The translations under genes and the position numbers were made by a program. The notes below the pieces were generated by a model. The model was not told where the DNA came from, searched no databases, and was given only the letters and a program-made list of their open reading frames with translations. Positions 2,909 to 34,362 of a DNA stretch of 35,800 nucleotides are shown here, piece by piece (the stretch's first letter is position 1; every line of letters begins with the position of its first letter). This DNA comes from Anaerolineae bacterium (GTDB taxonomy: Bacteria > Chloroflexota > Anaerolineae > Epilineales > JAHCIE01), in contig JAHCIP010000022.1 of the NCBI GenBank assembly GCA_026129165.1, positions 1 to 35,800 of the forward strand, read 5' to 3'.

Positions 2909-2940
2909 CAACATCGTCGGGGATGGCTGAGGAGGTTAGG

Positions 2941-3630
2941 ATGAAGACTGGATGGACACTGGATCGTGACGTGCAAGTGGTGCTGCCGGATGGCAGCACG
3001 CACTCCTTGACGGATTACCTGGTACCCAGCGCGCTGCTGATGCTGGCGGCCTTGCTCCTCATTTCATCCATCTTCCTGCCCTACTGGAGCCTGACCCTGA
3101 AAGCGCCGCAGTACCCCAAGGGCTTGAAGGTGTCGGTCTACGTCAATCACCTGGACGGCGATGTGCGCGAGGTGGATGCCCTCAACCACTACCTGGGCAT
3201 GCCGCCGCTGGACGAGGGCGGCCGGCTGGAGCGTTCGATGTCTATGGTGGCGATTGTGGCGCTGGGGCTGCTGCTCGTGGCGGGCGTCTTCGTCCACAAC
3301 CAGTGGGCGGCCATCCTGGCCCTGCCCGTAGTCGCCTTTCCGCTGATTTTCCTGGCCGACCTGGGGCTGATTCTGTATCGCTATGGCCACAGTATTGACC
3401 CTAAGTCGGCGCTGGGAGGCGCCATCCAACCCTTTACCCCGCCGCTGTTTGGCGAGGGCAAGATTGGTCAGTTTGGCTCGGTGGCGCGCCCTGAACTGGG
3501 ACTGGGGCTGGCGTTCGCCGCCGTCATCGTCGTCCTGATGGGCCTATGGTATCACCGTGCGGCCTACAAGCCGCTGGTGGATGCGCGCAAGCGGGTCAGG
3601 AACCTGGCCGCCGTGCAGCAGGTGGCGTAG
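2941..3630 (+). CDS. NosB-like nos-locus integral membrane protein
   Basis: A 229-residue membrane protein of the kind that sits beside clade II nosZ genes. Hydrophobic segments lie at about 28-48, 104-122, 125-147 and 190-208. The first extracellular loop holds LKAPQYPKGL and VDALNHYLGMPPL, a conserved-looking pair of motifs I associate with nos-locus membrane proteins. The family's biochemical role is not established. Its position directly after nosZ matches NosB in other clade II clusters, but I cannot prove orthology by eye. ATG 2941 is preferred because GGAGG (2931-2935) lies five bases upstream; an in-frame ATG at 2923 has no such site. It ends two bases before nosD, so the genes are probably translationally coupled. 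A role in electron transfer to, or assembly of, NosZ is inference. Confidence 0.75.
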   Translation: MKTGWTLDRDVQVVLPDGSTHSLTDYLVPSALLMLAALLLISSIFLPYWSLTLKAPQYPKGLKVSVYVNHLDGDVREVDALNHYLGMPPLDEGGRLERSMSMVAIVALGLLLVAGVFVHNQWAAILALPVVAFPLIFLADLGLILYRYGHSIDPKSALGGAIQPFTPPLFGEGKIGQFGSVARPELGLGLAFAAVIVVLMGLWYHRAAYKPLVDARKRVRNLAAVQQVA

Positions 3631-3632
3631 CC

Positions 3633-5804
3633 ATGCGCCGCCGTCTCGTCGCCCTGCTGGGCCTGGTCCTGGGGCTGGCGGCCGGACTGCCGACCGTCGT
3701 TGGGGCGGCCCCGTCCGCCGCGCTGACGACGGTCCTGGTCGTCTCGCCGCAGGGGCCGTTCACCACCCTCGCGGCCGCGGTCCAGGCGGCCCGCGAGGGC
3801 GATACGGTCGAGGTTCGTGGCGGCGTGTATCGCGGGTCGCTGACCGTCGCCAAGACGGTGCGTCTGGAAGGGGTGGGCTGGCCGGTTCTCGACGGGGGCG
3901 GTCAGGGGACGGTGGTAACGCTCGCCGCGCCCGACATCGTCTTCCGAGGCTTCGAGGTACGCGGGAGTGGGTCGGAGCCGCACCTCGACCATGCCGGCAT
4001 TACTGTGACCGCGCCCCGCGTCGTGGTCGAGGGCAACCGCCTGCGCGACGTGCTGTTTGGCATCTTTGTCGCCCAGGCCGAGAGCGCCGTCATCCGGGGC
4101 AACACGGTGACGAGTAAAGACGAGTACGACCTGGGGCGCAAGGGCGACGGCCTGCGCCTGTGGTACAGCCCGCGCGTCCTTATCGAGGGTAACACGGTAT
4201 CCGCGACGCGGGATGTGGTTATCTGGTACTCGTCGGATGTCACCCTGCGCGACAATCTCGTCCAGGATGGCCGCTATGGCGTCCACCTGATGTACTGCGA
4301 CCGCGTCACCATTGAGCGCAACCGGCTGGTGAACAACTCGGTCGGTATCTATACCATGTACTCGTCGGGCACCTGGGTGCGCGAGAACGTCATCCGGGGC
4401 CAGCGCGGGCCGAGTGGCTACGCGCTCGGCTTCAAGGACGCCGACAACGTCGAGGTGACCCACAACGCGCTGGTGGACAACCGCGTGGGCGTGTTTCTGG
4501 ACGGCACGCCGTTCACCCCGCAGAGCTACAGCCGCTTTGAAGCGAACGTGCTGGCCTTCAACGATGTCGGCGTCATCCTGCAACCGGCCGTCCACAACAA
4601 TACCTTCGCGGGCAATGCCTTCTGGGAAAACGTGGAGCAGGTGGGAGTACAAGGCGGCGGCCAACTGGAGCGCAACCAGTGGCAGGGCAACTACTGGAGC
4701 GACTATACGGGCTTCGACGCCAATGAGGATGGGCGGGGCGATACGCCTTATCATGCCGAACGGACCTTTGAGCACCTGACCGACCGCGAGCCGCGCCTGC
4801 GCGCTCTGCTCTACAGCCCGACCGTGCAGGCCATCGAGTTCGCGGCGGCGGCGTTCCCCATTGTGCGGCCCCAGCCCAAGCTGACCGACGCGACGCCGCT
4901 CGTGCAGCCACCCGACGTGGCGGCCTTTGTACAGCCTACGCCGGGGGGCGAGCGCCTGGGGCTGGTCGGCGCGGGCTTGGTGGCGCTGGGCCTGCTGGCT
5001 GGCGGCCTGGCCGTCTGGCGGAGGACCAGTCCAGGGCAGGAGGGACACGCGACCATGTTGAACTGTCTACCACGCGACACAGCGGCGGCGGTGGCGGTCC
5101 GAGGGCGAGGCATCACCAAGACCTATGGCGAGACCCAGGCGTTGACGGATGTCTCGTTTGAGGTCCGCCACGGGGAAGCGGTGGCCTTGTGGGGGGCGAA
5201 TGGCGCGGGCAAAACGACCCTCATCAAAGCCCTGCTCGGCCTGATTGAGACGGACGGCGTCATCGAGGTGGAGGGACAGCCGGTCGGCCAGGCGGGCAAA
5301 GCGGTGCGCGCCTGTATCGGCTACGTGCCCCAGGAAACCGCCTTCTACGACCTGACGGTTGACGGGACGCTGGCGTTTTACGGCCGGCTGAAGAAAGTCG
5401 GCGCGGCCCGCCGCGGCGACCTGCTGGCGCGGCTGGGGTTGAGCGAGCATCGCCGCAAGCCGGTGGCGGCGCTGTCGGGCGGTCTCAAACAGCGGCTGGC
5501 CCTGGCCCTGGCGCTGCTGGCGAACCCGCCCATCTTGCTCCTGGACGAGCCGACGGCCAGCCTGGATGTGGCCGGCCGACGCGACTACTTGGCCCTGCTG
5601 GCGGAACTGCGTCGCGAGGGGAAAACGCTCCTCTTCGCGTCGCATCGGCTGGACGAGGTGGAGACGCTGGCCGACCGGGTGCTGATCCTGGACGAGGGGG
5701 AGGTGATGGCCGAGGTCACGCCGGCCGAACTACGCCGACAACTGACCAGCCCGGTGACGTTGAGCGAGTGGCTGACGCCCGCGCTCGATTTTGAAGTGGA
5801 GTAA
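3633..5804 (+). CDS. nosDF: NosD-NosF fusion: copper-site maturation protein plus ABC ATPase
   Basis: One uninterrupted 723-residue frame joins two proteins that are normally separate. Residues 1-25 are a signal peptide. About 35-420 are a NosD right-handed beta-helix with repeated 'VIRGNTV' and 'VTIERNRLVNNSVGIYT' type coils. A helix at about 443-462 is followed by RR, which places what follows in the cytoplasm. From residue 475 comes a complete NosF ATPase: Walker A GANGAGKT (521-528), signature LSGGLKQR, Walker B ILLLDEPTASLD, and H-loop SHR. NosD is an exported protein and NosFY an ABC transporter, all needed to build CuZ, so the topology is consistent with a working fusion. An internal ATG at 5055 with AGGAGGG (5038-5044) ten bases upstream could also give a free 249-residue NosF. 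No stop codon separates the parts. The start at 3633 follows the previous stop by two bases; nosY follows after four. Confidence 0.9.
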   Translation: MRRRLVALLGLVLGLAAGLPTVVGAAPSAALTTVLVVSPQGPFTTLAAAVQAAREGDTVEVRGGVYRGSLTVAKTVRLEGVGWPVLDGGGQGTVVTLAAPDIVFRGFEVRGSGSEPHLDHAGITVTAPRVVVEGNRLRDVLFGIFVAQAESAVIRGNTVTSKDEYDLGRKGDGLRLWYSPRVLIEGNTVSATRDVVIWYSSDVTLRDNLVQDGRYGVHLMYCDRVTIERNRLVNNSVGIYTMYSSGTWVRENVIRGQRGPSGYALGFKDADNVEVTHNALVDNRVGVFLDGTPFTPQSYSRFEANVLAFNDVGVILQPAVHNNTFAGNAFWENVEQVGVQGGGQLERNQWQGNYWSDYTGFDANEDGRGDTPYHAERTFEHLTDREPRLRALLYSPTVQAIEFAAAAFPIVRPQPKLTDATPLVQPPDVAAFVQPTPGGERLGLVGAGLVALGLLAGGLAVWRRTSPGQEGHATMLNCLPRDTAAAVAVRGRGITKTYGETQALTDVSFEVRHGEAVALWGANGAGKTTLIKALLGLIETDGVIEVEGQPVGQAGKAVRACIGYVPQETAFYDLTVDGTLAFYGRLKKVGAARRGDLLARLGLSEHRRKPVAALSGGLKQRLALALALLANPPILLLDEPTASLDVAGRRDYLALLAELRREGKTLLFASHRLDEVETLADRVLILDEGEVMAEVTPAELRRQLTSPVTLSEWLTPALDFEVE

Positions 5805-5808
5805 CGCC

Positions 5809-6648
5809 ATGCCACACCGCACCCTGGAGTGGAGCAGCCTGTGGACGATTGCCCAGCGCGAGTTGGGCGAGGCTCTGCGCAACAAATGGTTGTGGTTCTA
5901 TGCGGTCGCCTTTGGCGGGCTGGCCCTGGCCTTGTCTCAAGCCGGTGTGGCCTCGGCGGGCTACGCGGGCTTGGGCGGCTTTGGCCGCACCGCCGCCAGT
6001 CTGATCAATGCCCTGTTGCTGTTTGTGCCGCTGATGGGGCTGAGCGTCGGGGCCGGGGCGTTGGCCGCCGACCGCGAGCGCGGGACGCTGCTCTACCTGC
6101 TGGCGCAACCCGTCAGCCGCGCCGAGGTGTTCTGGGGCAAGGCGCTGGGCGCGGCCCTGGCGGTCCTGACGGCCCTGGCGCTGGGCTTTGGCCTGGCCGG
6201 CCTGGGCCTCGCCCCTACCGCCGCTGGCAACGTGGCCCCGTTCTTGGGCCTGGCCGCCTATAGCCTCTTGCTGGCGTTCGTGTCGCTGGGGCTGGGCTTT
6301 ATCCTGAGCGCCTTGACCAAACGGGCGGCGACGGCCTCCGGGGCCGCGCTGCTGCTCTGGCTGGGGCTGGTGTTCGCGGGCGACCTGGGCCTTATTGGTA
6401 CGGCGCTGACGCTGCGGCCCACGCCGGCAGTCCTGCTCACGCTATTGCTGGCCAACCCGCTCCAGGTGTTCAAGCTGGCCGCCATCTACAGCCTGCGGGC
6501 GACCCTGGACACCCTCGGTGCGGTCGGGCAGTATGCCACCTATCGCTTCGCGGACCAGTTGCCCCTGGTCTTGTTGGCCCTGCTCCTGGCGTGGATTGTG
6601 GTAAGTTTTGGCCTGGCGGCTCTGCTGTTCCAGCGCCGCGCGCTGTAG
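5809..6648 (+). CDS. nosY: NosY, ABC transporter permease for NosZ copper-site assembly
   Basis: A 279-residue ABC-2 type membrane protein with about six hydrophobic helices (near 30-48, 65-87, 105-128, 143-165, 172-195 and 250-272). The cytoplasmic motif AADRERGTLLYLLAQPVSRAEVFWGK after the second helix is typical of the NosY/ABC-2 family. NosY pairs with NosF and works with NosD in CuZ maturation; the exported substrate, probably a sulfur species, is known only from work on other systems. ATG 5809 is chosen over the in-frame ATG 5791, which would overlap the nosDF stop; GGAG lies seven bases upstream. The gene is translationally coupled to nosDF. It is followed by a structured repeat before nosL. 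Confidence 0.93.
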   Translation: MPHRTLEWSSLWTIAQRELGEALRNKWLWFYAVAFGGLALALSQAGVASAGYAGLGGFGRTAASLINALLLFVPLMGLSVGAGALAADRERGTLLYLLAQPVSRAEVFWGKALGAALAVLTALALGFGLAGLGLAPTAAGNVAPFLGLAAYSLLLAFVSLGLGFILSALTKRAATASGAALLLWLGLVFAGDLGLIGTALTLRPTPAVLLTLLLANPLQVFKLAAIYSLRATLDTLGAVGQYATYRFADQLPLVLLALLLAWIVVSFGLAALLFQRRAL

Positions 6649-6822: not shown

Positions 6823-7311
6823 ATGAGGCAGAATAAGGTCATGAGGGCCTGGCGTTGGCGGGGTTGGGTGGTGATGGTCCTGGCGGCGCTGGCGCTGGCC
6901 GGCTGTAGCCCGCGCCAGGCGGGCGAGCCGCAGCCGCCGGAGATTGTCTATGGGCGGGACGTGTGCGACCGCTGCGGAATGATCATGGATGAACCGCGCT
7001 TTGCCGCCGCCGTGGTCCTGGCTGACGGCCAGACGCTCAAATACGACGACCTGGGCGAGATGCTGCTACAGCACGGGACGGCGGCGCGGGAGACGGTACG
7101 CGCCTGGTTTGTACATGACTATCATTCGGAGCAGTGGGTGCGCGGCGAGAAGGCGTTGTATGTGATCAGCCCGAAGCTGCGCACGCCCATGGGCTTTGGC
7201 GTGGCGGCGTTTGCCGAGCGGCCGGACGCGGAGGCGTTTGCCGCGACCATGAGTGGGACGGTGCTGAGTCTGGAGGAGGCGCGGGGGAAGGTCAAAGGCG
7301 GCCACCCATAA
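6823..7311 (+). CDS. nosL: NosL, copper(I)-binding lipoprotein
   Basis: NosL is an outer-face lipoprotein that carries Cu(I) for NosZ maturation. The frame has a lipoprotein signal ending LALAGC, with lipidated Cys28 counted from ATG 6823. Next comes the NosL copper motif VCDRCGMIMDEPRFA (C48, C51, M53, M55), then the conserved KYDDLGEML, VHDY and MGFGVAAF segments. The length (162 aa) is normal for the family. GAGGTG lies nine bases before ATG 6823; GTG 6820 and ATG 6841 are alternatives, and the last gives the most typical lipoprotein signal length. It follows nosY after a 174-base gap filled by repeat B, so transcription from the nosZ promoter may be attenuated here or restarted. Confidence 0.93.
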   Translation: MRQNKVMRAWRWRGWVVMVLAALALAGCSPRQAGEPQPPEIVYGRDVCDRCGMIMDEPRFAAAVVLADGQTLKYDDLGEMLLQHGTAARETVRAWFVHDYHSEQWVRGEKALYVISPKLRTPMGFGVAAFAERPDAEAFAATMSGTVLSLEEARGKVKGGHP

Positions 7312-28710: not shown

Positions 28711-31700
28711 CTATCGCCACACGAGCATGGTATCCGTCGGCGCGCCGTACTGGAACACCACATCGGCGCTCCCCGCCGTGTTGCTGTTCCTCAGATACCA
28801 CAGGTTGCCTCGCTTGATGCCCACCGTGTCTACTCCATCTCCGTTCCAGTCCCCCACCAGCGGCCAGTCGCCTATCCCTAGCCCATACAGGAACACCGTG
28901 TCGGCATTGCCGCTGCTCGTGCTGTTCCGCAGGTAGAACGCCCCGCCTCGGAAGACGCCCGGCGTGTCGGTGGTGTTGCCATCCCAATCCCCCACCAGGG
29001 GCACATCCCCCGGCTCGCCGTAGAGGAAGGTCACGTCGGCCACGCCGCTGGTATTGCTGTTACGCAGGTACCAGGCTTTCCCGCCCCGCACGACGCCCAC
29101 CGTCTCCACCCCGTCGCCGTCCCAGTCGCCGCAGATGGGCGTATCGCCGGGGAGGCCGTAGGCCAGGCTGATGTCCGAGACGCCAGTGGAGTTGGAGTTG
29201 CGCAGGAACCAGGCGCCGTTGCGGAAGACGCCCGGCGTGCGCGAGCCATTGCCGTCCCAGTCGCACATCAAGGGCACATCACTACTGAAGCCATAGAGGA
29301 AGACCGTGTCGGCGGGGCCGCCGCTGAGGGAGTTCCTGAGGTACCAGGTGCCACTCCGCCAGGCGGCGGGCCGGACCGGACCGACGACAGGGGTGCGGGT
29401 CGGCGTGGGGGTGATGGTGGATGTAGTGGTCGGCGTCGGGGTACGCGTGGCGGTCGCCGTACTGGTCGAGGTCGGCGTGCTGGTGGATGTGCTCGTCGCC
29501 GTCGGCGTGCTGGTGGATGTGCTCGTCGCCGTCGGCGTGCTGGTGGCCGTCGCCGTACTCGTCGCCGTGCTCGTTGGCGTGCTCGTGGCCGTCGGCGTAC
29601 TCGTCGGCGTACTGGTGGCCGTACTCGTGGCGGTCGCCGCACTCGTGGCGGTCGCTGTACTCGTTGGAGTACTGGTGGCCGTACTCGTGGCGGTCGGCGT
29701 ACTCGTCCCGGTGGCTGTGCTGGTCGCCGTACTCGTCGGCGTGTTGGTAGGCATGGGCGTGGCAGTCGCCGTGCTCGTCGGCGTCACCGTACTGGTAGGT
29801 ATGGGCGTGGCAGTCGCCGTGCTCGTCGCGGTCGCCGTGCTGGTGGGCGTACTCGTTGCAGTCGGGGTACTCGTGGACGTATTCGCGGCGGTTGCCGTAC
29901 TCGTCGGGGTAGTCGTAGCGGTTGCCGGACTGGTCGAAGTGCTCGTCGCGGTGGCTGTACTCGTTGGCGTACTCGTGGATGTACTCGTGGCGGTCGCCGT
30001 ACTCGTCGGGGTACTCGTGGCGGTCGTCGTACTCGTCGGCGTCACCGTACTGGTGGGCGTCGGCGTCTCAGTCGGCGTACTGGTCGCGGTTGCGGTCCCC
30101 GTCTCGGTGGGCGTCGCCGTACTGGTGGGCGTCGGCGTGGCCGTCGCCATCGAAGTCACGGTCGGCGTGGGGGTGGTGGTCGGCGGGAGGGTCTGAACCT
30201 CGTAGGGGCCCATGTCGATCCGGCCCCCCACGATGCGCGGGGCGCCGTCGAGGTCGGTGGTGGGCAGGGGGGGCGCCGTGTCGGCGGGGTCGCCGGTGTT
30301 GATGGCGGGCGAGCCGGCCTGCAGGCGCAGGTCGCCGCTGGTCGTTGGCGCGGACTCCGTGATGGGTGTGACGAACAGCGGATCGTCGCTGCGGTTGCCC
30401 GTGCCCGCGTAGCCGCCCTCCACGATGCTGTAGGTCACCGAGGTGGCGCCGCCGCTGTTGTTGATTTCGGGGCCGTCAGAGGCGGTGTCGCCCCACAGGA
30501 TGCTGTTGCGGATCGTCACATTGTCGCCGAAGTTGGACAGCCCGCCGCCGAATAAGGCGTCGTTGCCGCTGAAGACCGCGTTGGTCAGCGTCGGGCTGCC
30601 GCCGTCGTTGAACATCCCCCCGCCCTCGAATTGGACGGAGTTACCGCTGAAGACCGCGTTGATCAGCGTCGGGCTGCCGCCGAAGTTGTACAGCCCGCCG
30701 CCAAATTCGGCTCTGTTGCCGCTGAAGACCACGTTGGTTAGCGGTGGGTTACCGCTGGCGTTGAATAGCCCGCCGCCTCCGGTTGCGCTATAGTTGGCAC
30801 GGAAGACCACGTTGGTCAGCGTGGGGCTGCCGCCGAAGTTGTACAGCCCGCCGCCGATGCCGCCAGCGCCGCCGCCAGGGTTGAAGGCGGCGTTATCACG
30901 GAAGACCACATGGGTCAGCGTCGGGCTGCCGCCGTCGTTGTACAGCCCGCTGCCCTTGTCCTTGGCGAAGTTGCTGCTGAAGACCAGGTTGGTCAGCGTG
31001 GGGCTGCCGCTGGCGTTGTACAGCCCGCCGCCGTGGTCGTTGGTCCCACCTCCATTGGCGCTACTGTCGCTGACCGTGAAGCCGTCGAGGATGGCGGTGC
31101 TGTCCGTCCCGCTGCCCGTCACGACGTGGTAGCTGTTCTCGTCGCGGTGGGCGAAGTTTGCCCCGTCGTCCCCGTTCAGGTCGCCGCTCAGGGTCGTCCC
31201 GTTCGTCGCCGGGTCGGCGTTGCGCTGGTCGCGCTGCGCCTCCACCCCGGCGAACCCGCCGTAGACGGCGACGCCGCTCTTGAGCGCGAACGTCGCGGTC
31301 CGGTTCCCGTTGGGTCCGGCCGGCTTGTACACCCCGGCCTTGACCCACAGCTCGTCGCCGCTGACGGCTCCGGCCAGGGCGGGGATCAGGTCCAGGGCGT
31401 TGGCCCACGAGCTGCCGTCCTGCGTCCCCGCCCCGCCCACCACGACGTAGCGCACGCCCGGTGTCCGTGTCGCTGTCGGGGTGACCGTCACCGTCGGGGT
31501 GGCGGTGTTGGTCGGCGTGGCGGTCGGCGTGGCGGTCGGCGTGGCCGTGCTGGTCGAAGTGACGGTCGGCGTCTGGGTCGCCGTCGGGGTACTTGTGGTT
31601 GTCGGAGTCGGGGGGGAGACTGGGTTGATGGGTGGATTGCTGGGCGCCTGGCCGGCCCCGTCGTTGCCCCAGCAGGTCGCCAGCCCTGTGGACGTCACGG

Positions 31701-32676
31701 CACAGGTGTGGATGCTGCCCACGCCTGTGCTGACCTGGACAAACGTCCCGCTGGGAATCCCCTGCAGCTGGCCGAAAGAGTCGTCACCCCAGCAGGCCAG
31801 CGTCCCGTCGCTCCTGATGCCGCAGGTATGGTTCTGGCCCGCGCTGACCTGGACAAACGTCCCGCTCGGCGGGTTCGCCTGGCCCTCATTCGTCCCATCG
31901 TTGAGGTCACTGGTCCCCGCCCCCCAGCAGGCCAGCGTCCTGTTGCTCTTGACCCCGCAGGTGTGGTTGTCGCCCGCGCTGATCTGCACATACGGCCCAT
32001 CGGCCCGGCTGGCCGGCGCCTGGCCGTAGCCGTTGTCCCCCCAGCAGACCACCGTCCCGTCGCTCTTGAGGCCGCAGGTGTGGAGGAAGCCCGCGCTGAC
32101 CTGGACAAACGTCCCACTGGGCGTGCTCGCCTGGCCGAAGTTGTTATAGCCCCAGCAGGCCACCGTCCCGTCGCTCTTGACCCCGCAGGTATGGAGCCCG
32201 CCGGCGCTGATCTGGACAAAGGCGCCACCGGGAGGGTTCGCCTGGCCTTCGTTGAAGTTGTCGTTCAAATCGCTGGTTCCCGCGCCCCAGCAAGCCACCG
32301 TCCCGTCGCTCTTGAGGCCGCAGGTATGGGCGCTGCCCGCGCTGACCTGGACATACGGTCCATCGGCCCGGCTGGCTGGCGCCTCGCCGGAGCCGTTGTC
32401 GCCCCAGCAGACCACCATCCCGTCGTTCTTAATCCCGCAGGTGTGGTTACCCCCCACCTCGACGGCCAGGAAGTCGGCCACCGGCACGGTGGGGATGCCA
32501 TTCAACTGGTCGGTGCTGTTGCTGCCCCAGCAAGCCAGCGTCCCGTCGCTCTTGATGGCGCAGGTGTGGTAGCGCCCCGCGCTGACCTGGACGAACGTCC
32601 CGCTGGGGACCCCGTCAACTGGCCCTGGCCGTTGTAGCCCCAGCAGGCCAGCGTCCCGTCGCTCTTGAGCGCGCAT
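28711..32676 (-). CDS. Giant secreted RCC1/beta-helix protein, C-terminal open part
   Basis: A continuous frame of up to 1321 residues that forms the C-terminal two-thirds of a larger gene. The sense frame begins at about 32610; the codons above that are out of register. Order: eight RCC1-like repeats (HTC..KSDGT.ACWG, about 38 aa each); a Thr/Pro linker; a right-handed beta-helix of about 400 aa with SPTLTNVVFSGN...GGGLYN coils; a choice-of-anchor-like end (SPAINTGDP...DLDGAPRIVGGRIDMGPYE); a 270-residue Thr/Ser/Pro/Ala linker; and five C-terminal repeats of about 46 aa (WYLRNSNTSG.AD..FLYG.PGD.PLVGDWDGDG.DTVGV.R). It is probably exported and surface-bound. The stop codon lies in a heptamer tract. 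With the upstream part it would reach about 1880 residues. No independent ribosome binding site was found, so this piece alone is unlikely to be exported. Confidence 0.8.
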   Translation of the reverse strand: MRAQERRDAGLLGLQRPGPVDGVPSGTFVQVSAGRYHTCAIKSDGTLACWGSNSTDQLNGIPTVPVADFLAVEVGGNHTCGIKNDGMVVCWGDNGSGEAPASRADGPYVQVSAGSAHTCGLKSDGTVACWGAGTSDLNDNFNEGQANPPGGAFVQISAGGLHTCGVKSDGTVACWGYNNFGQASTPSGTFVQVSAGFLHTCGLKSDGTVVCWGDNGYGQAPASRADGPYVQISAGDNHTCGVKSNRTLACWGAGTSDLNDGTNEGQANPPSGTFVQVSAGQNHTCGIRSDGTLACWGDDSFGQLQGIPSGTFVQVSTGVGSIHTCAVTSTGLATCWGNDGAGQAPSNPPINPVSPPTPTTTSTPTATQTPTVTSTSTATPTATPTATPTNTATPTVTVTPTATRTPGVRYVVVGGAGTQDGSSWANALDLIPALAGAVSGDELWVKAGVYKPAGPNGNRTATFALKSGVAVYGGFAGVEAQRDQRNADPATNGTTLSGDLNGDDGANFAHRDENSYHVVTGSGTDSTAILDGFTVSDSSANGGGTNDHGGGLYNASGSPTLTNLVFSSNFAKDKGSGLYNDGGSPTLTHVVFRDNAAFNPGGGAGGIGGGLYNFGGSPTLTNVVFRANYSATGGGGLFNASGNPPLTNVVFSGNRAEFGGGLYNFGGSPTLINAVFSGNSVQFEGGGMFNDGGSPTLTNAVFSGNDALFGGGLSNFGDNVTIRNSILWGDTASDGPEINNSGGATSVTYSIVEGGYAGTGNRSDDPLFVTPITESAPTTSGDLRLQAGSPAINTGDPADTAPPLPTTDLDGAPRIVGGRIDMGPYEVQTLPPTTTPTPTVTSMATATPTPTSTATPTETGTATATSTPTETPTPTSTVTPTSTTTATSTPTSTATATSTSTSTPTSTATATSTSTSPATATTTPTSTATAANTSTSTPTATSTPTSTATATSTATATPIPTSTVTPTSTATATPMPTNTPTSTATSTATGTSTPTATSTATSTPTSTATATSAATATSTATSTPTSTPTATSTPTSTATSTATATSTPTATSTSTSTPTATSTSTSTPTSTSTATATRTPTPTTTSTITPTPTRTPVVGPVRPAAWRSGTWYLRNSLSGGPADTVFLYGFSSDVPLMCDWDGNGSRTPGVFRNGAWFLRNSNSTGVSDISLAYGLPGDTPICGDWDGDGVETVGVVRGGKAWYLRNSNTSGVADVTFLYGEPGDVPLVGDWDGNTTDTPGVFRGGAFYLRNSTSSGNADTVFLYGLGIGDWPLVGDWNGDGVDTVGIKRGNLWYLRNSNTAGSADVVFQYGAPTDTMLVWR
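29380..30190 (-). repeat. Low-complexity Thr/Ser/Pro/Ala linker-coding repeat
   Basis: About 810 bases of degenerate six-base-type repetition on the plus strand (GTACTCGTGGCGGTCGCC and variants). It encodes alternating T-P-T-x-T-A-T units in one minus-strand frame. It codes for a long flexible, probably glycosylated linker. Recombination between units would change linker length without shifting the frame. Confidence 0.85.
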
Positions 32677-34120
32677 GTGTGGAAGCCGCCCGCACTCACC
32701 TGGACGAATGTCCCGCTGGGGATGCCATTCAACTGGCCGACCTGGTGCCGGATTCCAGCAGCTGTCCCGTCGCTCTTGAGGGCACAGCTGTGGAAGCTGC
32801 CCGCGCCCACCTGGACAAACGTCCCGCTGGGGATGCCATTCAACTGGCCTTGGCTGTTATCGCCCCAGCAGGCCAGCGTCCCGTCGCTCTTGACGCCGCA
32901 GGTGTGGTAGAGACCCGCGCTGACGTGGACAAACGTCCCGCTCGGCGGGGCCGCCTGGCCGTAGTCGGGAAAATCGCCCGTATTGGTCGTCCCCGCGCCC
33001 CAGCAAGCCAGCGTCCCGTCGCTCCGTATCGCGCAGGTGTGGTAGAGACCCGCGCTGACCTGGACGAACGTCCCGCTCGGCGGGGCCGCCTGACTGTAGG
33101 AGGTGGCCCCCCAGCAGGCCAGCGTCCCGTCGCTCCGTATCGCGCAGGTGTGGCCGTAGCCCGCGCTGACCTGGACGAATGTCCCGCTGGGGATGTTGTC
33201 CAACTGGCCGTCGGCGTTGGAAAGCCCCAGCAGGCCAGCGTGCCGTCGCTCTTGACCGCGCAGGTGTGGAAGCTGCCCGCGCCCACCTGGACGAACGTCG
33301 CCGTGGGCACCCCAGTCAACTGGCCGTCGCCGTTGTAGCCCCAGCAGGCCAGCCTCCCATTGCTCTTGAGCGCGCAGGTGTGGTAGGTGCCCGCGCTGAC
33401 CTGGACGAACGTCCCGCTGGGGATGCCAGTCAACTGGCCCTGGTAGTTGCTGCCCCAGCAGGCCAGCGTCCCGTCGCTCTTGACCGCGCACGTGTGGCTG
33501 TCGCCCCCGCTGACCTGGACGAAGGTTCCTGTGGGGATGCCATCCAACTGGCCGTTGCCGTTGTCGCCCCAGCAGGCCAGCGTGCCATCGCTCCGTATCG
33601 CGCAGGTGTAGTAGTAGCCCGCGCTGACCTGGACGAACGTTCCCGTGGGAACCCCGTTCAATTGGCCGCTGCTGTTGTCGCCCCAGCAGGCCAGCGTCCC
33701 GTCGCTCTTGAGGGCGCAGGCGTGGTAGGCCCGCGCTGACCTGGACGAACGTCCCGCTGGGGATGCCATTCAACTGGCCGAAGCTGTTGTCGCCCCAGCA
33801 GGCCAGCGTGCCATCGCTCCGTATCGCGCACGTGTGCGCGTACCCCCCACTCACCTGGACGAATGTCCCGCTCGGCGGGACCGCCTGGCCTTCGTTAATG
33901 TTGTCGTTCAAATCGCTGGTTCCCGCGCCCCAGCAGGCCAGCGTGCCGTCGCTCTTGACCGCGCAGGTGTGGTAATAGCCCGCGCCCACCTGGACGAACG
34001 TCCCGCTGGGTGGCGTCGCCTGGCCGGAAACGTTATAGCCCCAGCAGGCCAGCGTCCCGTCGCTCTTGATGACGCAGGTGTGGTAGCCGCCCGCGCTGAC
34101 CGAGGCCAGCCGCGCTCCCT
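31640..34120 (-). repeat. Array of 21 RCC1-like repeats
   Basis: Counting HTC...ACWG units through the frameshifts gives 21, which equals three seven-bladed RCC1-type propellers. Units are about 38 codons: GTFVQVSAG.YHTCA.KSDGTLACWGDN..GQLNGIPS. Each carries two Cys about 13 residues apart. DNA identity between units is very high, especially the plus-strand CCCCAGCAGGCCAGCGTCCC block. Unit 12 is damaged (KSDGTAAGIRHQ in place of KSDGTLACWG). Confidence 0.8.
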
Positions 34121-34362
34121 CCACGGGCGGCCCGCCGTCGTCTCCGCCCATCCCACCCCGGTTCGGGGCCGGCGCGGGAGCCGTCTGACCGCCAACCGCC
34201 GGGAAAAGCCGCTGCTGACCGCTGACCGCTGACCGCTCGCGGCTGAGAGCCATCCACCCTCCACCCTCCACTCGCGCTCGCCGTCTGGGCCAGCCCGAGC
34301 AAGATGACCAGAACGATGACCAGCCGAACCCATGGCCCCCGAACACGTGGCGGTGTCAACAT
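32502..34362 (-). pseudogene. N-terminal part of the giant RCC1 gene, frameshifted
   Basis: ATG 34362 begins a clear signal peptide (RLVIVLVILLGLAQTASA) but runs to a stop at 34033 in the wrong frame. The RCC1 repeats just below are in another frame, open from 34346 and lacking a signal. The frame changes again near 33735 (two bases missing compared with sister units: GTGGTAGGCCCG against GTGGTAGAGACCCG), near 33222, and near 32610 (one base missing: GGACCCCGTCAACTGG against GGATGCCATTCAACTGG). So the full protein cannot be made without frameshifting or repair. The first shift coincides with a GCTGACC heptamer repeat. These may be real decay, a reversible switch at the first site, or assembly errors in a repetitive gene. 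No other long gene in the window is broken, which argues against generally poor sequence. Confidence 0.7.
34214..34234. repeat. Three GCTGACC heptamers in the N-terminal coding region
   Basis: GCTGACC occurs three times in direct tandem (34214-34220, 34221-34227, 34228-34234), between the signal peptide and the first RCC1 repeat. Seven is not a multiple of three, so each gain or loss shifts the frame. Removing one unit joins the signal-peptide frame to the RCC1 frame with no stop between. Confidence 0.85.

Follow-up and report, generated by a model that had tools for sequence, protein, structure and literature searches.

Bacteria that reduce nitrous oxide (N2O) act as a sink for this greenhouse gas, and their N2O reductase depends on the transporter NosDFY. 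NosDFY hands copper from NosL to NosZ, and ATP hydrolysis reshapes NosD (PMC12747935, PMC13068155). The NosDFY of Pseudomonas stutzeri (PDB 7o0y and the rest of its series) has the same three components as the locus described here, and in its PDB entries a single NosD chain is accompanied by two chains each of NosF and NosY. NosD is a separate chain of 436 residues in that complex and our match to it extends as far as residue 424, too close to the end for a membrane helix to follow, while NosF has 308 aa and includes a C-terminal domain. In Bacillus azotoformans, NosD has a C-terminal transmembrane helix, but nosD and nosF are separate genes (PMC3475470). Within the Chloroflexota, a full nosZDYL system is reported for Thermoflexus hugenholtzii; nosF is not in the list, and the accessible part of the account does not mention a fusion (PMC8129789). 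No published description of a NosD-NosF fusion was found in the open literature, with most subscription journals outside the search.

The window, a 35,800-nucleotide stretch of an Anaerolineae bacterium, carries both proteins in a single gene. This gene, nosDF (3633-5804, plus strand), has 723 codons without a stop and a predicted product of 77.7 kDa. Homology to the P. stutzeri proteins is clear for NosD (E = 2.6e-32), NosF (E = 2e-34) and the neighbouring NosY (E = 3.8e-23). Unlike its P. stutzeri counterpart, the NosD of the window is fused and membrane-anchored, and NosF is also fused and keeps little of its C-terminal domain. The membrane anchor is shared with B. azotoformans NosD. The parts and the pathway are thus already known; the joined architecture and the internal start described below are the variant.

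The initial annotation, made from the sequence alone, had proposed that NosD and NosF are read through in one frame, with one membrane helix at about residues 443-462 followed by RR, a full ATPase and each domain on its proper side of the membrane. Profile searches and an AlphaFold model (built on a 46-sequence alignment, mean pLDDT 88.7) agree with this description. The product begins with a putative Sec-type signal peptide (3633-3710, residues 1 to about 26, MRRRLVALLGLVLGLAAGLPTVVGAA), a hydrophobic helix after a basic start (modeled at residues 2-17) with the beta-helix behind it, so that export is predicted. The NosD beta-helix domain and its C-terminal extension follow (3732-4907, residues 34-425 approximately; model strands at about 34-351). 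The NosD profile TIGR04247 matches residues 46-425 with 396 bits against a curated cut-off of 300, and PF05048 matches residues 163-360 with 138.5 bits against a cut-off of 23.6. A single transmembrane helix (4950-5012, residues 440-460) lies between the two domains in the model and is followed by WRR. The cytoplasmic linker (5013-5090, residues 461-486) is disordered, with pLDDT below 50 at residues 463-482, and differs in length and sequence among relatives. The ATPase domain (5091-5747, residues 487-705), whose fold begins at residue 487, matches PF00005 at residues 504-642 with 103.8 bits and has Walker A (GANGAGKTT), signature (LSGGLKQR) and Walker B (ILLLDEPT) motifs. In a fold search the top hits were all ABC ATPases, since the score is governed mainly by the ATPase domain. 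The NosF part is 47-60% identical to NosF from other nos loci, and on sequence grounds it qualifies as a NosF ortholog rather than some other ABC ATPase. The in-frame join is confirmed, and a topology with the beta-helix outside and the ATPase inside is supported for the full-length product.

The genes adjoining the fusion identify the locus as a nos cluster. All on the plus strand, they are nosZ for nitrous oxide reductase (854-2908; PF18764 nos_propeller and cupredoxin), an ORF for a membrane protein without a family (2923-3630), the fusion itself, the permease gene nosY (5809-6648; PF12679, with 7o0y_D as the NosY matched) and the copper chaperone gene nosL (6826-7311; PF05573), in that order; a cytochrome c gene is also among the neighbours. 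The fusion therefore has the NosY partner of a NosDFY transporter, with nosZ and nosL nearby. The membrane ORF had no match in a Pfam profile search, and its position between nosZ and nosDF is common to several relatives (L003, L007 and L008). No second NosF-grade ATPase was found in the genome, where the best match scored 502 bits and the next 141 bits (43% identity), and none was found in any of the 12 fused genomes tested.

The initial annotation treated the fusion as a departure from the norm and suggested a search of other Chloroflexota nos clusters. The implied rarity did not hold. Among 60 relatives, a single match spanned both domains in five other genomes, and in others two neighbouring genes were matched. 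A class-wide survey of 396 genomes found NosD in 83, and the 82 loci examined comprised 50 fused, 28 split and 4 whose readable sequence stopped short of the NosF part, making the fused state the commoner one in the class (50/78 readable loci). From the GTDB collection, 80 named loci were retained, with 37 fused and 42 split (fused in 37/79). The fusion also occurs in other groups of Chloroflexota, and the complete chromosome of Candidatus Lucifugimonas marina carries it. Outside the phylum, it is found on MAG contigs labeled Tectomicrobia (L153), Planctomycetota (L169 and L181), Calditrichota (L175), Gemmatimonadota (L183) and Armatimonadota (L184); such labels may hide mis-binning, and L153, L181 and L184 lie on contigs longer than 100 kb. 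The fusion is recurrent in dozens of Chloroflexota and in some other bacteria, and is not a one-off. Separately, ambiguous bases in one genome (G036; loci L136/L006) give an apparent frame of 1232 residues spanning the upstream ORF, nosD, nosF and nosY; apart from the nosD-nosF join, this long frame is likely an artefact of sequence quality.

Trees were built from 140 non-redundant loci, 79 of them fused. FastTree gave 14 changes between the fused and split states, at least 11 of which are forced by strongly supported branches, and a quick IQ-TREE tree gave 15, with 11 forced; these counts do not give the direction of each change. In the window's own clade (99-100% support), 22 of the 23 members are fused, the opposite of the state in which all close relatives would keep separate genes. 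In the lone split member (L074), nosF starts 57 nt after nosD, and this is best read as an apparent later re-separation of a fused gene. Linkers in the clade have 16 distinct lengths from 21 to 50 codons, all in frame. In a comparison of 13 pairs of close fused relatives, of which three belong to the window's clade, linker substitutions fall 100:84:129 at codon positions 1, 2 and 3. Therefore, the linker sequence is nearly free to change while the frame is held. Split NosD proteins of this group also have a C-terminal membrane helix, followed in most cases by a basic tail, so the end of NosD was already intracellular and beside NosF. The join would have been made through this existing anchor. 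At 27 of 61 split loci, nosD and nosF overlap as ATGA in different frames, and fusing such genes would therefore need a frame change.

The linker of the window contains an in-frame ATG (5055-5057, codon 475), a candidate start for a free NosF of 249 aa and 26.8 kDa (predicted). The initial annotation had estimated about 75 and 27 kDa for the two possible products. As the initial annotation had pointed out, an AGGAGG ribosome-binding-like site lies upstream (5038-5043). Its spacing of 11 nt exceeds the usual, and its duplex energy is -10.8 kcal/mol. In the control set, made up of 697 further internal ATGs from the fused ORFs, only 4 are as strong. The pairing is stronger than at the starts of nosDF and nosY (-5.9 each) and weaker than at the nosZ start (-12.2). 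The idea that the old NosF start is preserved holds roughly, but the ATG is 13 codons upstream of the commonest start of split NosF proteins.

Linker ATGs are enriched across the fused proteins, although related sequences enter the statistics as if they were partly independent. An in-frame ATG is present in 58 of 76 fused linkers compared to 28 expected, and in 55 compared to 25.8 expected under a stricter definition of the linker and per-ORF Met frequencies. In the window's clade, 18 of 22 linkers have one (6.8 expected; 18-21 of 22 across counts), as do 13 of the 15 deep lineages to which the clade collapses (4.6 expected). Mean ribosome-site energies are -5.4 for linker ATGs, -3.1 for other ATGs and -2.8 for non-ATG codons of the same linkers. 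Pairing is thus stronger at linker ATGs in both comparisons, with other ATGs (p = 7e-11) and with these non-ATG codons (p = 4e-13); neither p value accounts for shared ancestry. These comparative data support a candidate internal start that has been maintained. The remaining 18 of 76 fused proteins have no linker ATG, and Candidatus Lucifugimonas marina is a fused species without one. In members of families f14 and f102, the former start codon is ATC or GTT and there is no ribosome site. The start has thus disappeared from some fused lineages and is not a universal requirement. Replacement of ATG by GTG was rejected as a general account of ATG-less linkers, as it covers few of them, mainly L222.

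We favor the reading that the locus holds a recurring fused form of NosDFY, with two proteins probably made from one gene (probability about 0.6). NosD and NosF of the transporter for N2O-reductase maturation would be supplied in one chain, the full-length product placing the ATPase inside and the beta-helix outside, tethered to NosY. The AGGAGG site and ATG 5055 would probably yield free NosF from the same mRNA too. A strict fusion would force two NosD per complex, and free NosF would restore a 1:2 ratio. A complex of one NosD-NosF, one NosF and two NosY would then have the 1:2:2 stoichiometry, which is taken from PDB chain counts of the P. stutzeri complex only. ATP hydrolysis would make NosD swap its partner from NosL to NosZ, as for NosDFY. 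We consider the odds about even that internal initiation produces a transporter in which one ATPase is tethered and the other free, the ratio being set at translation. Given the PDB counts and the lack of a second NosF-grade ATPase in the 12 fused genomes, two products are judged most likely in the window. The initial suggestion of a tethered and a free ATPase from one gene thereby gains comparative support through the maintained start, limited by the lineages that lost it; expression of both products, their stoichiometry and their function we infer.

The main rival is a complex built from the full-length fusion only, (NosD-NosF)2 NosY2, with the internal ATG and its purine-rich stretch being relics of the gene boundary or chance. 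This is probably the case in lineages without the start, since some have neither an internal start nor another nosF and the fusion alone evidently suffices there. Also, many ATGs outside the window's clade lie exactly at the split start, as a relic would (26 of 76 fused overall). For the window, this explanation is possible but doubtful: the clade keeps its ATG despite shifting position and near-free linker evolution, linker ATGs pair better than non-ATG codons within their linkers (p = 1.7e-5), and the solved complex contains one NosD. Another explanation is that cleavage after translation frees NosF or NosD and that the join merely equalises their synthesis. A disordered, unconserved linker is compatible with cleavage, but the linkers show no conserved cleavage motif and the membrane anchor is retained, making this quite improbable. 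The window's assembly does consist of 598 contigs, but a sequencing or assembly error that joined two genes is ruled out for the family by the 79 fused loci, single-contig genomes and the complete chromosome among them, and would need to have happened repeatedly, in many assemblies, since split relatives so often overlap out of frame, leaving it a negligible chance in the window.

The window also lacks most of the NosF C-terminal domain, a loss absent from the initial annotation. Instead of the usual domain of about 80 residues, only short flanks are retained, and 5748-5801 (plus strand) is the remnant left by an in-frame shortening. The domain is missing in 14 fused loci and 1 split locus and kept in 108. 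By independent pairs, the association between this loss and fusion was not significant, so a tie between the two is suggestive only.

The fusion explains the apparent absence of nosF from some clusters, and a nosF hidden in nosD would fit the nosF-less list in the accessible part of the Thermoflexus account. Whether the NosD:NosF ratio and the C-terminal domain of NosF are important can also be tested on this natural variant. A covalent tie between an ABC ATPase and its partner on the far side of the membrane, combined with a retained internal start, is an unusual arrangement that lends itself to direct testing.

Elsewhere, an Rfam search of the window gave no matches. On the minus strand at 28711-34346, two long ORFs (1321 and 614 aa) with an abundance of RCC1 repeats overlap in different frames and are possibly one frameshifted gene.
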